Made by a program: the position numbers and the translations under genes
Assembly (NCBI RefSeq): GCF_000217715.1
Contig: NC_015666.1
Span: 1,810,270-1,874,269, forward strand
DNA from: Halopiger xanaduensis SH-6
GTDB taxonomy: Archaea > Halobacteriota > Halobacteria > Halobacteriales > Natrialbaceae
Length of the DNA stretch: 64,000 nucleotides
Reading direction: 5' to 3'
Part shown: positions 10,820 to 52,190 of the stretch, piece by piece
How positions within the stretch are numbered: the stretch's first letter is position 1
How the letters are laid out: each line of letters opens with the position of its first letter
Notes under the pieces: model-generated
The model's database searches: none
What the model was told of the DNA's origin: nothing
The model's input: only the letters and a program-made list of their open reading frames with translations

Positions 10820-10974
10820 CGGTAGGACGGATTCAGCACGGTCGGCGCGTTCTGTTCAGAACTGACCGTCCGAATCAGCCGTTACGTGCGACTGCAGACC
10901 GATCATTCCTTTTCGTTCGTGCGACGCTCCACCGCTCCGCTGCGGGTCGCGACTAAGCGAGGGACCGTCCGCGC

Positions 10975-25257: not shown

Positions 25258-25719
25258 ATGGTCGCGGTCCCGACCTCCGATATGGACACGGGAGTACGAG
25301 CGGAGGGCGCGGGCGGCACCGCCGATCGGACGACGCTGTTGCTGGCCGTCGGCGACGTCGTCTTTCTCGCCGGTCTCGTCCTCGTCGGCCAACTCAGCCA
25401 CGGCGTCACGCCGATCGAACAGCCCGTCGCGGCCCTCGAGACGGTCGCGCCGTTCGTTCTCGGCTGGCTGCTCGTCGCAGCGATCGCGGGACTCTACACG
25501 AACGCGGGCGCCGTCGCGACGTCGGTCCCGCGAACGGCCCGCACCACGGCGGTCACCTGGATCGCAGCGGCGAACGTGGGCTTTATCCTGCGCAACGGGC
25601 TCTTCGGCGAGAGCACACTGTGGCCGTTCCCGCTGGTGATGACCGGCTTCGGCCTGCTCGTTCTCGTCGGCTGGCGGGTCGGCTACGCGGTTTTCGCCGA
25701 CTCGAGCGGCCGACCATAA
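25258..25719 (+). CDS. DUF3054 family membrane protein
   Basis: A 153-aa protein with four hydrophobic segments: about residues 27-48, 60-82, 95-112 and 128-147. The pattern LLLAVGDVVFLAGLVLVGQL and ALETVAPFVLGWLLVAAIAGLY is characteristic of DUF3054. Start at ATG 25258 or at the in-frame ATG 25282; the upstream sequence does not decide. Functions of this family are unknown. Confidence 0.75.
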   Translation: MVAVPTSDMDTGVRAEGAGGTADRTTLLLAVGDVVFLAGLVLVGQLSHGVTPIEQPVAALETVAPFVLGWLLVAAIAGLYTNAGAVATSVPRTARTTAVTWIAAANVGFILRNGLFGESTLWPFPLVMTGFGLLVLVGWRVGYAVFADSSGRP

Positions 25720-26026
25720 GCGGCCATCTCCGCGGGGATCGACCGTATCACCCCATGCGATTGCGTTCGATCTCGATTTTCACTTTTCGGACAAACGTGG
25801 GATCTGTCAGTTCTGCTATCGTCCTCGGCTTCGAACTGTAAACGCCCCGGACTACAGCCACGAATAATAATTATCGACTCTCGTGGACTGTATCGTACCT
25901 TTCGTTCTCCAAGGTCGCTCCTTTCACGCGATTCCGAGGGGATACTGTAGTTTCACAAATATTATACTATATACAGAAACCCGATTTTGCTGTAAAATCC
26001 AGCACAGTCCAGTCACTCGATAACCA

Positions 26027-26043
26027 TCTCATAAGTTATGAGA
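26027..26043. repeat. Perfect 17-bp palindrome TCTCATAA-G-TTATGAGA
   Basis: Two 8-bp arms around a single central G. It sits about 60 bp upstream of the TATA box of the small membrane gene at 26138. The size and placement suit a regulator binding site, or an RNA hairpin if transcribed. Confidence 0.55.
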
Positions 26044-26102
26044 ATCTAGCGGGTAGAATACGAATTAGAAACGGATCTGGTATCGACCGATTATGGGAAA
26101 CA

Positions 26103-26110
26103 CTTATATG
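26103..26110 (+). promoter_or_regulatory. TATA box of the small membrane gene
   Basis: CTTATATG about 31 nt upstream of the ATG at 26138. Confidence 0.55.
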
Positions 26111-26137
26111 CCTATTTGCCATAGTATAGGATAGATT

Positions 26138-26353
26138 ATGACTGGATACTACGACATTGTTCTTGGCCTCATCCCAGTCGCACTGCTCGGTATCACCGCC
26201 GCCCTGTCGCTCGTGGGACTCTCATTCACGGCAGCGGTACCGATCGGCGCGTTCGTCTCGATGGGAATTATCGGCCATGCAATGTTCGTCAATACGCCGT
26301 CCGACGGCGCCGACGAGGCTCGGTCCGCACGGCCGCCGATCAACGCGGACTAA
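26138..26353 (+). CDS. Small two-helix membrane protein
   Basis: A 71-aa protein. Hydrophobic segments at residues 7-29 (VLGLIPVALLGITAALSLVG) and 32-50 are followed by a polar tail rich in Asp, Arg and Ala. It has a clear TATA box and is preceded by the AT-rich gap with a palindrome, so it is likely to be an expressed, regulated small membrane protein. No function is known. Confidence 0.65.
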   Translation: MTGYYDIVLGLIPVALLGITAALSLVGLSFTAAVPIGAFVSMGIIGHAMFVNTPSDGADEARSARPPINAD

Positions 26354-26501
26354 ATCCAGTCACGCTCTCGCTTTCTCGATTTTCTCGTCGTTTCGTTCCG
26401 GTTCGTCTCGCTTCGTTCCCACCTCGTTCTCACCCGTTCGACCCCATCCGTAGTGGCCGGTGTCGTCAGCTTTTCCCTGATTGCGTTCGTTAGTGTCGCC
26501 G

Positions 26502-46670: not shown

Positions 46671-46772
46671 GCCGTATCGGCACTCGAGACGACGTTTTTG
46701 TTTGGCGACGCTAAAGAGCGACGCCGACGGTATTGGAGGCCTATTGAAACATTCAAAAGTTGATGGGAAGGG

Positions 46773-46826
46773 CGTGCTGCATACAGAGGATAAGTTCAGC
46801 ACGACGACTTTGGTTGTTTCACGCCG
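46773..46826 (+). repeat. Dispersed repeat, copy A
   Basis: 54 bp starting CGTGCTGCATACAGAGGATA and ending TTTGTTTCACGCCG-type. The inner 31 bp has near inverted ends (CGTGCTGCA / TTCAGCACG). It aligns without gaps with copy B at 49489. It lies between the acetate operon and the module-2 DUF7344 gene, at the left edge of the AT-rich island. Confidence 0.6.
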
Positions 46827-46964
46827 AAAGTAGTGAACCAACCCCTCCCCGTAAGTGTAAACTGGCTGAAAAGGGCATTCACCCACATAATCGAAACATA
46901 TTTTCAAATAGGTTGGGGGAGAACTTTATACGCATTGATGCCTGTCTCTCGTCCATGGAGAACA

Positions 46965-47336
46965 ATGAATGAGGAAACCAGAGAGAGTGGAGAAATTCCA
47001 AAAGCGGAAATAGCCACGCCAGTAGAGGACATTTCGGTAGATGTAATCTTCGAATTGATCTCTCACCAACGTCGGCATGCAATTCTTGATCTCCTTCTAA
47101 CTTACGACCAATCATTAACTATCACTGATCTTCGTAACGAGATCGTCGAAAAGGAGGAGGACACAGAAATAACCGAGATCTCCAGCGAACAGGTGAAACA
47201 GGTTCATATATCATTGCACCACGTTCACATTCCAAAATTAGAGGAGAAAGGAATCGTCAACTATGACTCGGACCGGAGTATCGTTGAGCCAACGGAGAAA
47301 CTTAGCCAACTGGAACCGTTCCTCAGTCAACTATAA
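46965..47336 (+). CDS. DUF7344 regulator (module 2)
   Basis: A 123-aa protein with ISHQRRHAILDLLLTYDQSL, a helix pair and the recognition segment SLHHVHIPKLEEKGIVNYDS, as in the copies at 10975 and 50218. The TATA box CTTTATA (46924-46930) puts transcription near 46952, which favours this ATG over an in-frame ATG at 46938. Codons such as AGA, TTA and ATA make it visibly less GC-rich than most of the window, consistent with transfer. Unlike the other modules, its HTH-10 partner (47787) is on the opposite strand. Confidence 0.8.
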   Translation: MNEETRESGEIPKAEIATPVEDISVDVIFELISHQRRHAILDLLLTYDQSLTITDLRNEIVEKEEDTEITEISSEQVKQVHISLHHVHIPKLEEKGIVNYDSDRSIVEPTEKLSQLEPFLSQL

Positions 47337-47357
47337 ATCACCTGGAGAGACTTCCGA

Positions 47358-47708
47358 TCACGTGTTCTCCATCGGTTTAACTTCAATCGTTCCTTCACTA
47401 AATGTGGTCACTGCAAATCCCTCATACGAAAAAGAGAAACAGACATTTTTCTGATCGTCGGTAGCTGTTCCCGATAGAAGATCATCGAGAGCCCCTGTAT
47501 CGATCGCAGAATGAAGAGGAGACAGTTCGTTAGGATCGCTGTTGGCAGCAGCCGCTACCACGGCAACTATTGCAAGACTCGGCTGATCACGACTGCTGTC
47601 GTACTCTGCCCGGAAGATATTCGCATCTATATCGAACTCTACGCTGTTCATCGAGCCTACGGCCTCAACGGCACCGAGGGCACCGATTTCTTTGTGGGAA
47701 GGAGTCAT
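47358..47708 (-). CDS. HalOD1 domain protein
   Basis: A 116-aa protein with the HalOD1 output-domain pattern: AEYDSSRDQPSLAIVAVVAA, a middle SPLHSAIDTGALDDLLSG, and C-terminal VCFSFSYEGFAVTTFSEGTI. The palindromic TATA-like CGTTTAAACG (47764-47773) places the transcript start before ATG 47708, chosen over the ATG at 47762. HalOD1 is a haloarchaeal output domain, usually C-terminal to receiver domains; here it is single. It lies between the DUF7344 and HTH-10 genes. Confidence 0.8.
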   Translation of the reverse strand: MTPSHKEIGALGAVEAVGSMNSVEFDIDANIFRAEYDSSRDQPSLAIVAVVAAAANSDPNELSPLHSAIDTGALDDLLSGTATDDQKNVCFSFSYEGFAVTTFSEGTIEVKPMENT

Positions 47709-47786
47709 CACCCGAATAGAGGAGTCCCACTGGGATGACGCTGAGTTTTGCTCGCGCAACATTCGTTTAAACGGGGTCTCTATGAG

Positions 47787-48437
47787 TTACTCTTGAGTCG
47801 TTATCAGAGTGCTTGCTACGAGGCGTCGAAGACCGCGCTGCAAACGCGATGAAACCGCTTGTCGGCTGACCTGGAGTTCGTCAGCGATATCGTCTTGCGT
47901 GGCTTTTCGCGGCGAATCGAAGTACCCACGAGAGTAGGCAAGTACCAATGCTGACCGCTGTCCCTCGGTTAAATCGAATTCTCGATCGGATTTGAGTGGC
48001 GAGAGTGCGTGGAGTTGGGTGAGTTCAATGAGGATATCATTCTCCCGGCAGTACGATTGGAATTCGGAGAGACTCTCTTGATCGCTACTTCTAACTTCAA
48101 ATGTCCAGTTCTTCTGTTCTCCCAGTCCGGAAAGGAGTGTGACTTCAGTGTTGACGATGGCGGTTAGAATGCTTTCGTGGTCGAGATTCCACTTGATGCG
48201 GACGAGCATCTCCTCCTCTAATTCGTCGATCTTTTTGAACTCATCAACCCCCTTATCATCACTCAAATCAGTTGTGAGCCCTCCAAGATTTTTCGAGTGA
48301 ATCCAGAAGTACGGTATGATGGCATCGTCCGTTGGAACAACGCGATCTAATTCAATGGTTACGTCTGGCAACTGTTCAAAAATTGTATTCAAAGGGAACT
48401 CGGGTTGTGGGACAGTAAATGAAGCTTCAATCGCCAT
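47787..48437 (-). CDS. HTH-10 regulator (module 2)
   Basis: A 216-aa protein of the same architecture as those at 11393 and 50649: TFTVPQPEFPLNTIFEQLPD, then the HTH-10 LTEGQRSALVLAYSRGYFDS and VSRQAVSSRLQRGLRRLVAS. It is more divergent and more AT-rich than the other two copies. Start MAIEASF matches MASEATF/MATEATF of the paralogues; 53 upstream codons were excluded. Confidence 0.85.
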   Translation of the reverse strand: MAIEASFTVPQPEFPLNTIFEQLPDVTIELDRVVPTDDAIIPYFWIHSKNLGGLTTDLSDDKGVDEFKKIDELEEEMLVRIKWNLDHESILTAIVNTEVTLLSGLGEQKNWTFEVRSSDQESLSEFQSYCRENDILIELTQLHALSPLKSDREFDLTEGQRSALVLAYSRGYFDSPRKATQDDIADELQVSRQAVSSRLQRGLRRLVASTLITTQE

Positions 48438-48650
48438 AGACTCGAGTAGTAGAAACCGCCTTTTGTGCTTCTCGCTGCTACTGCTTGTACTGAACTTCCG
48501 CTCTCTGGTTGTCCGAATTTTATCCCTTCGGTGAAATGCCTGTACTGAACGGCAACTACACGTGCGTACTGTTCGGTGTTCTCCAGGACATGACACTCAG
48601 ATTACTCCGTCACCAGAACCGCTTATGGAGCGAGGAGATGTCTCTCCTCT

Positions 48651-49370
48651 ATGACCGACTCGAGTAACGACGAGTTCGACCCAACAGCACCAGACCAGCG
48701 GGAGATCGGCCGCGAAATGGTTGACGACAGTACGGGGCTCGGTTCGGTGATGGCCCACGTCTATCGTGGAGAGATCGACCGAGTGGGGACGTGGCGACAG
48801 CGCCTCGACCAGACGACGACGTGGGCGGTGACGCTGATGGCAGCAATCTTGACGTGGGCGTTTTCGAGTACCGATAACCCGCACTATCTCTTGCTGATCG
48901 GGATCGTTGTCGTCACTATCTTTCTGGGCATCGAAGCACGGCGGTACCGGGACTACGATGTCTTTCGCTCTCGTGCTCGAGTCATCCAAGAGAACCTGTT
49001 CGCAAACGCCCTCGATCCGTCCCAAGGCACTGAAAGTCACGACTGGCGGGCGGAACTAAGTAGGGACTATCGCAGGCCGACGCTGAAAGTCTCGGTATCC
49101 GAAGCACTCGCAAACCGACTCCAGCGTGTGTACCTTGCGCTGCTCAGTGTCCTACTGGTCGCATGGGTCTTCAGGATTACAGCGTTCGCGCCGCGCCAAG
49201 ACTGGCTGACAACCGCTGAAATCGGCCGTATCCCCGGGATTGCTGTGGTTGCCATTGTGGGTGTGTTCTACGTCGTACTGCTTGGCGTTACCTTCTGGCC
49301 CCGTGAGCGCCATGCCAAGGGTGAATTCCGTGAAGGGGACCCAGACGACTGGAAAGAGACAGACCGATAA
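48651..49370 (+). CDS. DUF2270 membrane protein
   Basis: A 239-aa protein. Two helices near residues 58-75 and 82-98 (TTWAVTLMAAILTWAFSS, YLLLIGIVVVTIFLGIEARR) and two near 165-182 and 203-222 leave a soluble loop with YRDYDVFRSRARVIQENLFA. This is the DUF2270 pattern. The function is unknown. Located inside the island between two repeat copies. Confidence 0.85.
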   Translation: MTDSSNDEFDPTAPDQREIGREMVDDSTGLGSVMAHVYRGEIDRVGTWRQRLDQTTTWAVTLMAAILTWAFSSTDNPHYLLLIGIVVVTIFLGIEARRYRDYDVFRSRARVIQENLFANALDPSQGTESHDWRAELSRDYRRPTLKVSVSEALANRLQRVYLALLSVLLVAWVFRITAFAPRQDWLTTAEIGRIPGIAVVAIVGVFYVVLLGVTFWPRERHAKGEFREGDPDDWKETDR

Positions 49371-49488
49371 ATCCGCCCTCTGTACTGAACGATCACCACT
49401 TTCGCAGATCGAGCCGAATCTCGTGCTACAGTCGCGCCTTGTATGCAGCACGCTCGCAGAAACCTACCCAGTTTCCGTTAGAAGTCGC

Positions 49489-49542
49489 GTGCTGAATACA
49501 GAGGATGGATTCAGCACGACTGGTTCGTTTGTTTCACGCCGG
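49489..49542 (+). repeat. Dispersed repeat, copy B (best inverted ends)
   Basis: Begins CGTGCTGAATACAGAGGATG; its first 31 bp end in TTCAGCACG, giving a perfect 9-bp inverted repeat CGTGCTGAA / TTCAGCACG. It continues in register with copy A through TTTGTTTCACGCCG. Located between DUF2270 and the second HalOD1 gene. Confidence 0.65.
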
Positions 49543-49639
49543 ATCTACTGGATAGGGCATTCAGTAGACGTGCGAACTGACTGCTCGACAGGACGCGACT
49601 CACGAGTGAGGGAACAAACGCCGGTAGCCGGTTCGAATA

Positions 49640-49948
49640 CTACGCGTTTATCAGTAGTGGTTCTTCACTTGGGGCGATTCGAAGCTCGCCATCCGCATCA
49701 ATCTTCACTGTGTATCCCTGATACTCGAAGGCAAGTCGACACGGGGTTTCGGTCTCCTCAGCGCGGGCAACAAACGAATCCAGCGCTTCCGGATCCACGC
49801 TGTCCCACAATGGTTCGAGTTCGTCCGGCTCCTGTCCAGTCAACTCTGTGATGGTTTGGATCACTATGGCACTCGTTGATTGATCGGTGGCCTCTAAATC
49901 GACTTTGTACACGGGGATTATTTCATCCAAGTTGTCGTGGTTAGTCAT
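49640..49948 (-). CDS. HalOD1 domain protein
   Basis: A 102-aa protein: VYKVDLEATDQSTSAIVIQT, then ELEPLWDSVDPEALDSFVARA and RLAFEYQGYTVKIDADGELR, matching HalOD1 and the protein at 47358. It is monodomain and downstream of repeat copy B. Target and signal are unknown. Confidence 0.8.
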   Translation of the reverse strand: MTNHDNLDEIIPVYKVDLEATDQSTSAIVIQTITELTGQEPDELEPLWDSVDPEALDSFVARAEETETPCRLAFEYQGYTVKIDADGELRIAPSEEPLLINA

Positions 49949-50217
49949 GATGAGGAAACCGAGAAACTCGTCACTTATCCTGCAGTCTGAATAGTATCTC
50001 AGATATGAAAAACCTGATTACCAATCTATTTGGGACAATTACTGGTCAACCCCGTCCGAGAGATATACCGTCTGTACTGAACGTTGGCACCTGTGTCGTA
50101 GAAGACAGAGAGCTTCACAAGCCCAACTGCTCAGTATACGTGCGTATTGTTCGTCGCCCTCATTCCCTCAATGGAACGGTCTGGCACCAGACCAGAATGG
50201 AGAGCGGTTGATCGACG

Positions 50218-50577
50218 TTAGAGTTCGATCGGCGCTTCAAGTGTGGGGTCAACATCAACGATCGTAGACACGGTCGGCTGTATCCGCTCAAACTGCTCGG
50301 TCGGTTCGACGAGCTGTCGGTCCGGATCATAGGTAATAATCCCTTCCGAAGCTAGCTTTGGAAGGTGGACGTGATGGAGTGAGAGGTGAATCTCGGTTAG
50401 TACGTCCTCAGAGACCTCTGTAATTGACGTCTGATGGTTGTACTTGAGGACGGTTTGCGCAAGGTCATTCAGCGTTAGCGACCGCTGTTCTGCTGCGAGT
50501 ATCCCCAGCACGATCCGACGATGTTGGTGTTGACAGAGGTCGAGGACCGAATCGAAGGCGGAGGAAGCCTCACTCAT
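50218..50577 (-). CDS. DUF7344 regulator (module 3)
   Basis: A 119-aa protein, the same length as the copy at 10975, and clearly homologous over its full length: CQHQHRRIVLGILAAEQRSL, TSITEVSEDVLTEIHLSLHH, and the shared ending E-A-P-(L/I)-E-L. It follows an HTH-10 gene by 71 bp, the same order as in module 1. Confidence 0.85.
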   Translation of the reverse strand: MSEASSAFDSVLDLCQHQHRRIVLGILAAEQRSLTLNDLAQTVLKYNHQTSITEVSEDVLTEIHLSLHHVHLPKLASEGIITYDPDRQLVEPTEQFERIQPTVSTIVDVDPTLEAPIEL

Positions 50578-50648
50578 TATCTGTAGTGCAGACGACTGAC
50601 GCCAATCACACTGGCTTTTTCATATACAAACCGCTTTTACGTAGCCGA

Positions 50649-51305
50649 TCAAGATCGGTATTCGACAGCGGAGAGCGTACTCCCGAGGATGTGGTTGATC
50701 CCACCTCGGATGCGGGATCCAACGGCCTGTTGTGAGATGCCAAGCTCCTCACCGAGCACCTCTAGCGTGGCCTCACGAGGGGACTCAAAGTAGCCACGCT
50801 CGTAGGCGAGTACCAGCGCCTCTTGCTGGGTGTCGGTGAGGGCGGCTTCGGTCCCCGTTTCGACCGGTGTGAGCGCGTGCAACTCTGTCAGCGTGGTCGG
50901 GATGTCCAGTTCTCGACAGCGTTGTTGAAATTCGGCGATGTCGCTTCGGTCGTCACCGCGGATCTCGAACGTCCACTGGTGGTTCGTACCGGTGGCCTCG
51001 ATGAGCGGTACCTCCGTCTCCGCCAGTACGGTGAGCACGTCGTCGTAGTCCATTGCCCACTCGACTCGTAACAGATACTCGTCTTCGACGGAGTCCACGA
51101 GTCGAATCTCTTTCGTGCCGGGATGCTCGGTGAACGCGCTCTCAATGTCATCAACTTCGGTTCCCCGTACCCAGAAATAGGGAATCACTACGTCCCGTGC
51201 GGGGATAATGCGCTCAAGCTCAACCGTCACGTCCGGCAATTGGTTGAACACTGTCCCCAGCGGGAACTGGTCGGACGGAACCGTGAACGTCGCCTCAGTA
51301 GCCAT
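50649..51305 (-). CDS. HTH-10 regulator (module 3)
   Basis: A 218-aa protein very like the one at 11393: MATEATFTVPSDQFPLGTVF, IPARDVVIPYFWVRGTEVDD and the C-terminal HTH-10 AYERGYFESPREATLEVLGE with ISQQAVGSRIRGGINHIL. Conservation extends across both domains, so modules 1 and 3 probably come from a recent duplication or a shared transfer. Confidence 0.88.
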   Translation of the reverse strand: MATEATFTVPSDQFPLGTVFNQLPDVTVELERIIPARDVVIPYFWVRGTEVDDIESAFTEHPGTKEIRLVDSVEDEYLLRVEWAMDYDDVLTVLAETEVPLIEATGTNHQWTFEIRGDDRSDIAEFQQRCRELDIPTTLTELHALTPVETGTEAALTDTQQEALVLAYERGYFESPREATLEVLGEELGISQQAVGSRIRGGINHILGSTLSAVEYRS

Positions 51306-51709
51306 TGTCAGTACCAGTGGCTCCCACCGGGAAAGGTCTACGACCGAGTGCTCGTGACGCCGTTGTTCGTGGATGCCTGCTTTCTTGGACCATACCTCGA
51401 TTGTAGGTGAGTCTCAACACCAACAGTGGGATCAGTGATGAGGTGCTTGAGGTCGTTCTCTGCTTCCCTTGTAGTGAGCAGCTCATCGCATTTCGTTTCA
51501 TCTCGTATTGGAGAGATCACGCAGATTAGTACAGGACAAGCAAATAACGGTATGGTACAGAATCTCACTGATCACGATCAAGAACGCCGTGCTGAATACA
51601 GAGGATGGATGCACCACTATATCCCTTCATCTCCGTAATTTTCCCGAAATAGAAACGGACGAACTGACCGGGACATTTTGTGGCCAAGAACAGTCGGGGA
51701 GAAACCGGA
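51306..51709. other. 404-bp gap with repeat copy C
   Basis: No supported gene. A minus-strand reading (51568-51338, 76 codons) is not recognisable as a protein. A truncated copy of the dispersed repeat lies at 51588-51617. Confidence 0.5.
51588..51617 (+). repeat. Dispersed repeat, copy C (truncated)
   Basis: CGTGCTGAATACAGAGGATG then GATGCACCAC, losing the second inverted arm (TTCAGCACG) after the shared left half. Confidence 0.55.
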
Positions 51710-51958
51710 TTATTTGATCGACTGGAGAAATTCGTCCAGCGGATCTGTGAGTTCATCCACCTCCTCTCCGTTGATTTCAGCTGAGTACCGGATAATGACC
51801 ACATCCTTCTCATCAGTATGTCGGGCTTTATCAATATTCTCAACACCTTTCCAAATTCCTGTAACTTCAACTTGGCCATGTTTGGCGTGGTTGTACGTTT
51901 CACCACGGCTCACGACCATCTCTGAATCAGAACCCGGTAGATCGTCAGAATCGCCCAT
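51710..51958 (-). CDS. Conserved small haloarchaeal protein
   Basis: An 82-aa protein: SRGETYNHAKHGQVEVTGIW, VENIDKARHTDEKDVVIIRY and an acidic tail EEVDELTDPLDEFLQSIK. The fold looks like a small beta-rich domain. No family name can be assigned. The gene sits at the right edge of the AT-rich island. Confidence 0.55.
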   Translation of the reverse strand: MGDSDDLPGSDSEMVVSRGETYNHAKHGQVEVTGIWKGVENIDKARHTDEKDVVIIRYSAEINGEEVDELTDPLDEFLQSIK

Positions 51959-52077
51959 ACGAACCTCTGATAGCCGCTGAACCTTGTCCCTGTTGGTTGA
52001 TGTAGTCTATTGTTCGCCTCTACTGACCGTTCGCTCCTCCTCGTGAATCCGCCTTCGGCTTATGGCACATTCGCGCC

Positions 52078-52091
52078 CTGTATTCAGCACG
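52078..52091 (-). repeat. Dispersed repeat, inverted fragment (copy D)
   Basis: CTGTATTCAGCACG is the reverse complement of CGTGCTGAATACAG, the left end of copies B and C. Its flank CACATTCGCGCC matches the fragment at 12169-12195. It marks the right end of the island. Confidence 0.5.
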
Positions 52092-52190
52092 GCTTCGACA
52101 ACCGATCACCAATTAGGGATTTCAACGCGACCTATCGAGACGAATTACAGGCGCGGAGAACGATAGCAGCGCTGGACCGACGCTCGATCC

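Follow-up and report, generated by a model that had tools for sequence, protein, structure and literature searches.

Mobile insertion cassettes (MICs) have the ends of an insertion sequence (IS) and carry passenger genes without a transposase. Integrons, which have been reported in Archaea as well (PMC9668308), consist of small cassettes of mixed function that stand head to tail and have one conserved site. The miniature inverted-repeat transposable elements (MITEs), palindrome-associated transposable elements (PATEs) and small mobile repeats of Haloquadratum walsbyi (PMC3119063) are also free of transposase and are moved in trans. These systems are compared here with an island of regulator genes at 46.70-52.14 kb in a 64,000-nucleotide (nt) stretch of the Halopiger xanaduensis SH-6 chromosome (NC_015666.1, positions 1,810,270 to 1,874,269; "the window" below). 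With a probability of roughly 0.74, the island is a partly decayed array belonging to a haloarchaeal family of mobile gene cassettes that is moved via IS5-type ends.

The single cassettes of this family fit the MIC concept. They have inverted IS-type ends in common with autonomous IS elements, usually no transposase, and a target duplication (not found in the window island), whereas the pairing of a short with a long end and the arrays with a fixed 37-nt joint belong to the haloarchaeal cassettes. The arrays fit no system known to us. Haloarchaeal IS5-family elements have the same outer terminus, GGCTCTGTTGAAA, and an 8-bp target duplication; elements with this terminus encode a transposase, whereas most cassettes lack one and also have a conserved inner block and a subterminal region. 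As in integrons, a tyrosine recombinase lies near some haloarchaeal arrays. The haloarchaeal site, however, consists of two 12-bp inverted blocks 37 nt apart and would differ from attC, and in place of IntI there is a 234-amino-acid recombinase that scores far below the IntI cut-off and is absent from most arrays studied here. The haloarchaeal cassettes also differ from those of integrons in bearing transposon ends and target duplications, and by visual inspection only, the joint consensus nnnctgAgcgAaCTaCccAgncnCTGTCAGAAacgGC has no GTTRRRY/RYYYAAC pair. The H. walsbyi repeats (PMC3119063) are mostly short and non-coding, whereas the cassettes carry full genes and form arrays. The archaeal integron paper (PMC9668308) contains no occurrence of "Halobacter-" or "haloarch-", a review of archaeal tyrosine recombinases lacks the word "cassette", and the cassette end words gave no relevant match in the open-access literature.

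Composition and Insertion of the Island

An earlier note on this DNA had described a lower-GC stretch, and in 1-kb windows the guanine plus cytosine (GC) content indeed falls from about 0.66 to 0.49-0.57 across 46.7-52.1 kb. The island is an insertion, because its flanking genes adjoin in about 20 related genomes, of many genera, that lack the insert; there the left and right flank genes are 0.1-0.5 kb apart. The left flank comprises an acetate symporter-like gene (actP) and uspA, the right flank a small membrane protein, a cupin and the next gene, and the island lies between uspA and the next conserved gene. Pfam searches recovered the regulatory cassettes of the earlier note as two genes each of DUF7344, HalOD1 and BAT-HTH_10 type, accompanied by a single DUF2270 gene, in the order DUF7344, HalOD1, BAT-HTH_10, DUF2270, HalOD1, DUF7344, BAT-HTH_10. 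The note had recognised no transposase, and the element has none here. A phage origin was rejected on zero matches among phage records.

Cassette Ends and Single Cassettes

The earlier note centred on a 54-bp repeat, which it took for a possible mobile or recombination element carrying one-component regulators. Its four copies were located as claimed (A at 46773, B at 49488 and C at 51588 on the plus strand, D at 52091 on the minus strand). Copies A and B align without gaps over 64 nt at 80%, and the perfect 9-bp ends of copy B belong to two inverted 12-bp blocks, of which they form the outer part; 5 nt separate the blocks. In the aligned copies, conservation continues past the repeat for about 36-41 nt outward, where it runs to GGCTCTGTTGAAA, and for 50-90 nt inward. 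A stand-alone 54-bp element is rejected, as the conserved part is longer and paired. What stands of the proposal is a regulator-carrying mobile or recombination element, with regulators as one common cargo type among many; the repeat itself is the inner end, or the array joint, of far larger cassettes. Copy D is inverted, as the note had it, but is no stray fragment: it forms the island's outer long end.

A complete end consists of GGCTCTGTTGAAA, a spacer of 24 nt ("short") or 29 nt ("long"), and GTGCTGAATACA. From there L-type ends continue inward as GAGGATG.. and have, after 5 nt, another inverted block, whereas R-type ends continue as GCGCG. The word CGTGCTGMATACAGAGGAT occurs four times in this genome and is present in 7 of 60 relatives (reversed-pattern control 0), and in a public collection it was found on about 20 different contigs from named haloarchaea, besides a few unrelated matches due to chance. 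Its recurrence is not chance. Neither of the two observations that the note named as refuting it was made: the repeat is found widely in haloarchaeal genomes, and its position is at cassette borders, not at set places within unrelated genes. Longer matches were found in 33 plasmid records, in unannotated DNA wherever annotation exists. A pattern with a free spacer (18-34 nt allowed) matched 46 of the 293 genomes of the order (reversed control 0), and the spacers were almost all 24 or 29 nt. Over all gathered sequence, in counts that include duplicates and ignore relatedness, 78 ends had 24 nt, 113 had 29 nt and 18 another length. An end-profile search found inverted partner ends 0.8-5.4 kb apart, A and D of the island among them.

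An inverted partner end whose 8-bp flank was identical or differed by a single mismatch was present at 23 of 60 anchor places taken from the free-spacer matches in haloarchaeal genomes, against 0 of 300 with shifted flanks. Judged from these sequences, single cassettes move and generate 8-bp target duplications. The 23 distinct target-duplication pairs comprise 21 of a short with a long end, one of two long ends (L005) and one of a long end with a 31-nt spacer (L189); random pairing would give about half short with long, and relatedness inflates the observed excess. Both L-short/R-long and L-long/R-short cassettes were found, so the short/long rule would be more than a single inherited layout; inversion of the interior could yield both layouts without selection on length.

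All cassettes examined but one lack a transposase and carry ordinary genes, one or a few each. Among the mechanically called open reading frames (ORFs), regulatory cargo includes DUF7344, BAT-HTH_10, HalOD1, a response regulator and a FilR1-like regulator, and other cargo includes a PAS histidine kinase, the general transcription factor TFB, OsmC, globin, glyoxalase, HNH nuclease, dehydrogenase, PhoD, SnoaL and methyltransferase. A 1,913-bp cassette (L237) with short and long ends and the exact target duplication AAACGATT (on the plus strand of L237) has DUF7344 and BAT-HTH_10 genes as cargo, a pair of the kind seen in the window island. Related small proteins of HNH-motif type, starting QYPDDWDERR and DYPSDWDRRR, occur in two different genomes within cassettes that have target duplications (L021 and L230), and some cargo families therefore recur. 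Another single cassette of the present genome (L256 7766-8410; G000:C3, about 213.8-214.4 kb) holds a small lipoprotein-like ORF; one of its ends scored as short and the other seems long by eye.

Arrays and the 37-nt Joint

Cassettes also stand head to tail, with a conserved joint between neighbours in which the inverted 12-bp blocks TGTATTCAGCAC and GTGCTGAATACA face away from each other, 37 nt apart. Among 12 such gaps in sequence that had been collected with another aim, 9 measured 37 nt. When gaps of 25-55 nt were allowed in the 293 genomes, the gap was 37 nt in seven of nine (two of the seven being homologous), and 38 and 35 nt in the others. Joints at exactly 37 nt were present in 34 of the 293 genomes (reversed control 0). 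For gaps of 5-90 nt in all gathered loci, 37 nt accounted for 73 of 126 and the next length, 38 nt, for 7, a tally that is partly biased because some loci were chosen through the 37-nt spacing. Derived from 76 joints, the information content of these 37 nt is 23.8 bits, all beyond the 95th percentile of shuffles. The joint is co-linear with a short end minus its outer ten bases or so, and 38 of the 40 joints that were typed have the short-like half next to the L block.

Canonical outer ends are kept by the first and last cassettes of an array only. The largest array (G171), of about 22 kb and about 20 cassettes, begins with a canonical short end and closes with a canonical long one. At L043, two or three cassettes are enclosed by an exact 8-bp duplication, which suggests that a short array can be inserted whole. 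Cassettes were found on plasmids and chromosomes of many haloarchaeal genera; one plasmid with an array is NZ_CP084470.1 of Natrinema salinisoli. The TFB gene (PF00382) is array cargo at L254 9027-9989, and at L249 7471-8520 a different, 349-amino-acid Xer-like integrase directly adjoins an array.

Anatomy and Age of the Island

By comparison with these ends and joints, the island is probably a decayed array of about five cassettes with outer ends A (short) and D (long); the number follows from A, D, the joint at B, a decayed L end at C and two probable border scars. Its features, in window coordinates, are:

46738..46773, plus strand: outer short end of the array, copy A (GGCCTATTGAAAC and a 23-nt spacer), aligned with canonical short ends; nhmmer match of the end profile at 46735-46870, E 2.1e-27
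46774..46870, plus strand: L-type inner region of copy A, with block GTGCTGCATACA, inverted block and conserved subterminal part
46965..47336, plus strand: cargo gene, DUF7344 (winged-helix-like regulator; PF24035, E 6e-22)
47358..47762, minus strand: cargo gene, HalOD1 (PF18545, E 2.7e-23)
47787..48440, minus strand: cargo gene, BAT-HTH_10 regulator (PF04967 and PF15915)
48540..48575, no strand: probable border scar, R-subterminal CTGTACTGAACG followed by L-subterminal-like TACACGTGCGTACTG (48561)
48651..49370, plus strand: cargo gene, DUF2270 membrane protein (PF10028, E 6.9e-76)
49380..49391, minus strand: R-subterminal word CGTTCAGTACAG, exact match
49440..49451, minus strand: R-type inner block closing the preceding cassette
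49452..49488, no strand: array joint, exactly 37 nt between inverted blocks (G000:C3:1859709-1859769 of this genome)
49489..49575, plus strand: L-type inner region of copy B; its inverted block lies at 49506-49517, its subterminal TCAGTAGACGTGCG at 49561
49640..49948, minus strand: cargo gene, HalOD1 (PF18545, E 1.3e-23)
50072..50144, no strand: probable border scar, R word CTGTACTGAACG followed by L word TCAGTATACGTGCG (50131)
50218..50577, minus strand: cargo gene, DUF7344 (PF24035, E 1e-17)
50649..51305, minus strand: cargo gene, BAT-HTH_10 regulator (PF15915 and PF04967)
51589..51617, plus strand: L-type inner region of copy C, with decayed inverted block (nhmmer match 51570-51686)
51710..51958, minus strand: 82-amino-acid ORF in the last cassette, no Pfam family
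52079..52090, minus strand: R-type inner block of copy D, followed inward by GGGCGCG
52091..52132, minus strand: outer long end of the array (29-nt spacer and GGTCGCGTTGAAA); a same-genus genome has the same end

The recurring word of the earlier note, CTGTACTGAACG (reverse complement CGTTCAGTACAG), is matched exactly at only three places of the window, each within the island (48540-48551, 49380-49391 and 50072-50083). Those at 48540 and 50072 are probably borders stripped of their blocks and joint. The only same-genus genome matches the left flank up to 46703 and the right flank from 52069, keeps the whole of end D at 87%, and has about 640 unrelated bp between the flanks. Because D stands there beside unrelated DNA, it is older than the current contents of the island, which have turned over. 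With some joints lost and no member of the 234-amino-acid recombinase family in this genome, the array is probably static now. The DUF7344, HalOD1 and BAT-HTH_10 genes most likely reached the chromosome as cassette cargo.

Elsewhere in the window, 10824-10905 gave a weak match to the inner part of the end profile (E 1.3e-4; CGTTCTGTTCAG at 10848), possibly another remnant, at a local GC dip (0.60 at 11.0-12.0 kb). For a second dip, 0.557 at 25500-26500, no cassette end accounts.

Source of Mobility and Proposed Mechanism

The outer terminus GGCTCTGTTGAAATCCTCAG also begins elements that encode a 273-amino-acid IS5-family transposase (NF033579, 219-224 bits against a cut-off of 140; PF01609 also matched). 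One of them, of 1,535 bp (L191), combines this transposase with a cassette-type long end and the exact target duplication AGGGCCAA. The present genome has one intact IS5-type transposase gene, on another contig (G000:C1). Since the IS5 elements have the same outer terminus and one copy is in this genome, mobilisation of the cassettes in trans by an IS5-type transposase is likely. The elements may belong to the ISH1 group. A 1.1-kb element (L105 409-1519) with the target duplication GCGTATTC, a truncated IS5 transposase and an extra ORF is perhaps an intermediate between IS and cassette. The 8-bp duplication and the GG..TGTTG..AA terminus had first pointed to the IS6 and IS1595 families as the source of the ends, but both were rejected because no GGCTCTGTTGAAA-type end was found in 30 IS6 loci (PF13610) or 8 IS1595 loci (PF12762).

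According to the proposed mechanism, the transposase would act in trans on a short end paired with a long one, moving a single cassette or a whole array. Less certainly, arrays may grow or shuffle through recombination at the joints, which could be the work of a dedicated tyrosine recombinase or could occur through homology or microhomology of the conserved ends.

Several observations weigh against the island as an array moved via IS5-type ends. The mobility of the cassettes is read from sequences, and no excision, circle or transposition was observed. The link to IS5 is drawn from the common outer terminus, the 8-bp duplications and L191, and the transposase-side end of the IS5 elements lacks the inner block. 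For the island itself a target duplication was sought and none found (GTATTGGA on the left, TATCGAGA on the right), and its left end is degenerate, so that arrival as a single unit cannot be shown. The same-genus genome has the right end alone in common with the island, in which just one internal border has an intact joint.

Alternative Explanations

The arrays might instead be integron-like, with the 234-amino-acid tyrosine recombinase inserting and excising cassettes at the 37-nt joint, its gene fronted by an attachment-like half site, and the IS5-type ends moving whole arrays only. The sharp conservation of the joint in length and sequence agrees with this. The recombinase family is present in 30 of the 293 genomes, and one member, annotated as a site-specific integrase, lies inside a Natrinema salinisoli plasmid array. 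Of about 21 close homologues, about 15 have an R-type block 46-69 nt upstream of the start, which distant homologues hardly ever have, and the upstream site resembles the joint significantly in five or six of 16 (p 0.002-0.05). Joints occur within 1.5 kb of the recombinase gene in 4 loci, and a joint and a close homologue co-occur in 8 genomes against about 2.4 expected. The family scores 51-56 bits with PF00589, far below the curated Xer and integron cut-offs (21 bits against 265 for IntI, TIGR02249). However, most joint-bearing genomes, this one included, lack it, and Pfam detected no integrase near G171, the largest array, which leaves unsupported the idea that arrays generally require an adjacent integrase. 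The upstream similarity is missing from most subgroups, and the upstream blocks may be inherited rather than selected. Usual tyrosine-recombinase core sites are, moreover, unlike a 37-nt core. An integron-like origin is thus possible but doubtful.

The arrays could also be passive, formed by neighbouring insertions whose outer ends were lost when short and long ends recombined by homology or microhomology, leaving 37 nt. Haloarchaea readily recombine homologous DNA, and the joint looks like a fusion of two inner parts, one from a long and one from a short end, and is co-linear with a short end of 37 nt; by our own reading, recombination at the common TCAG/CCAG would yield 36-37 nt. Independent deletions would not be expected to give equal length in divergent joints across genera, nor would 23.8 bits of conservation be expected, and few intermediates, in which both outer blocks persist between adjacent cassettes, were observed. 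This explanation is regarded as rather unlikely. That the repeat is an immobile regulatory or RNA element of regulator genes, as its intergenic position, perfect hairpin and several copies beside regulators might suggest, is hardly credible, given that targets are duplicated, that the site is empty in relatives, that the cargo is unrelated and that cassettes form end-to-end arrays.

Significance

Haloarchaea are well known for gene gain, and to our knowledge gene-cassette arrays have hardly been described in them. It may tentatively be proposed that the arrays represent a haloarchaeal system apart from integrons, in which a dedicated tyrosine recombinase would insert and shuffle cassettes at a 37-nt composite site, and an IS5-type transposase requiring one short and one long end, under a length rule comparable to the 12/23 rule of V(D)J recombination, would move whole arrays between replicons. 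Because the ends and joints are sharply defined, the short/long rule and the mechanism at the joint are directly testable in a tractable archaeon. If true, the cassettes would provide a modular route for the spread of genes in Archaea, bringing regulators, TFB, and stress and metabolic genes.

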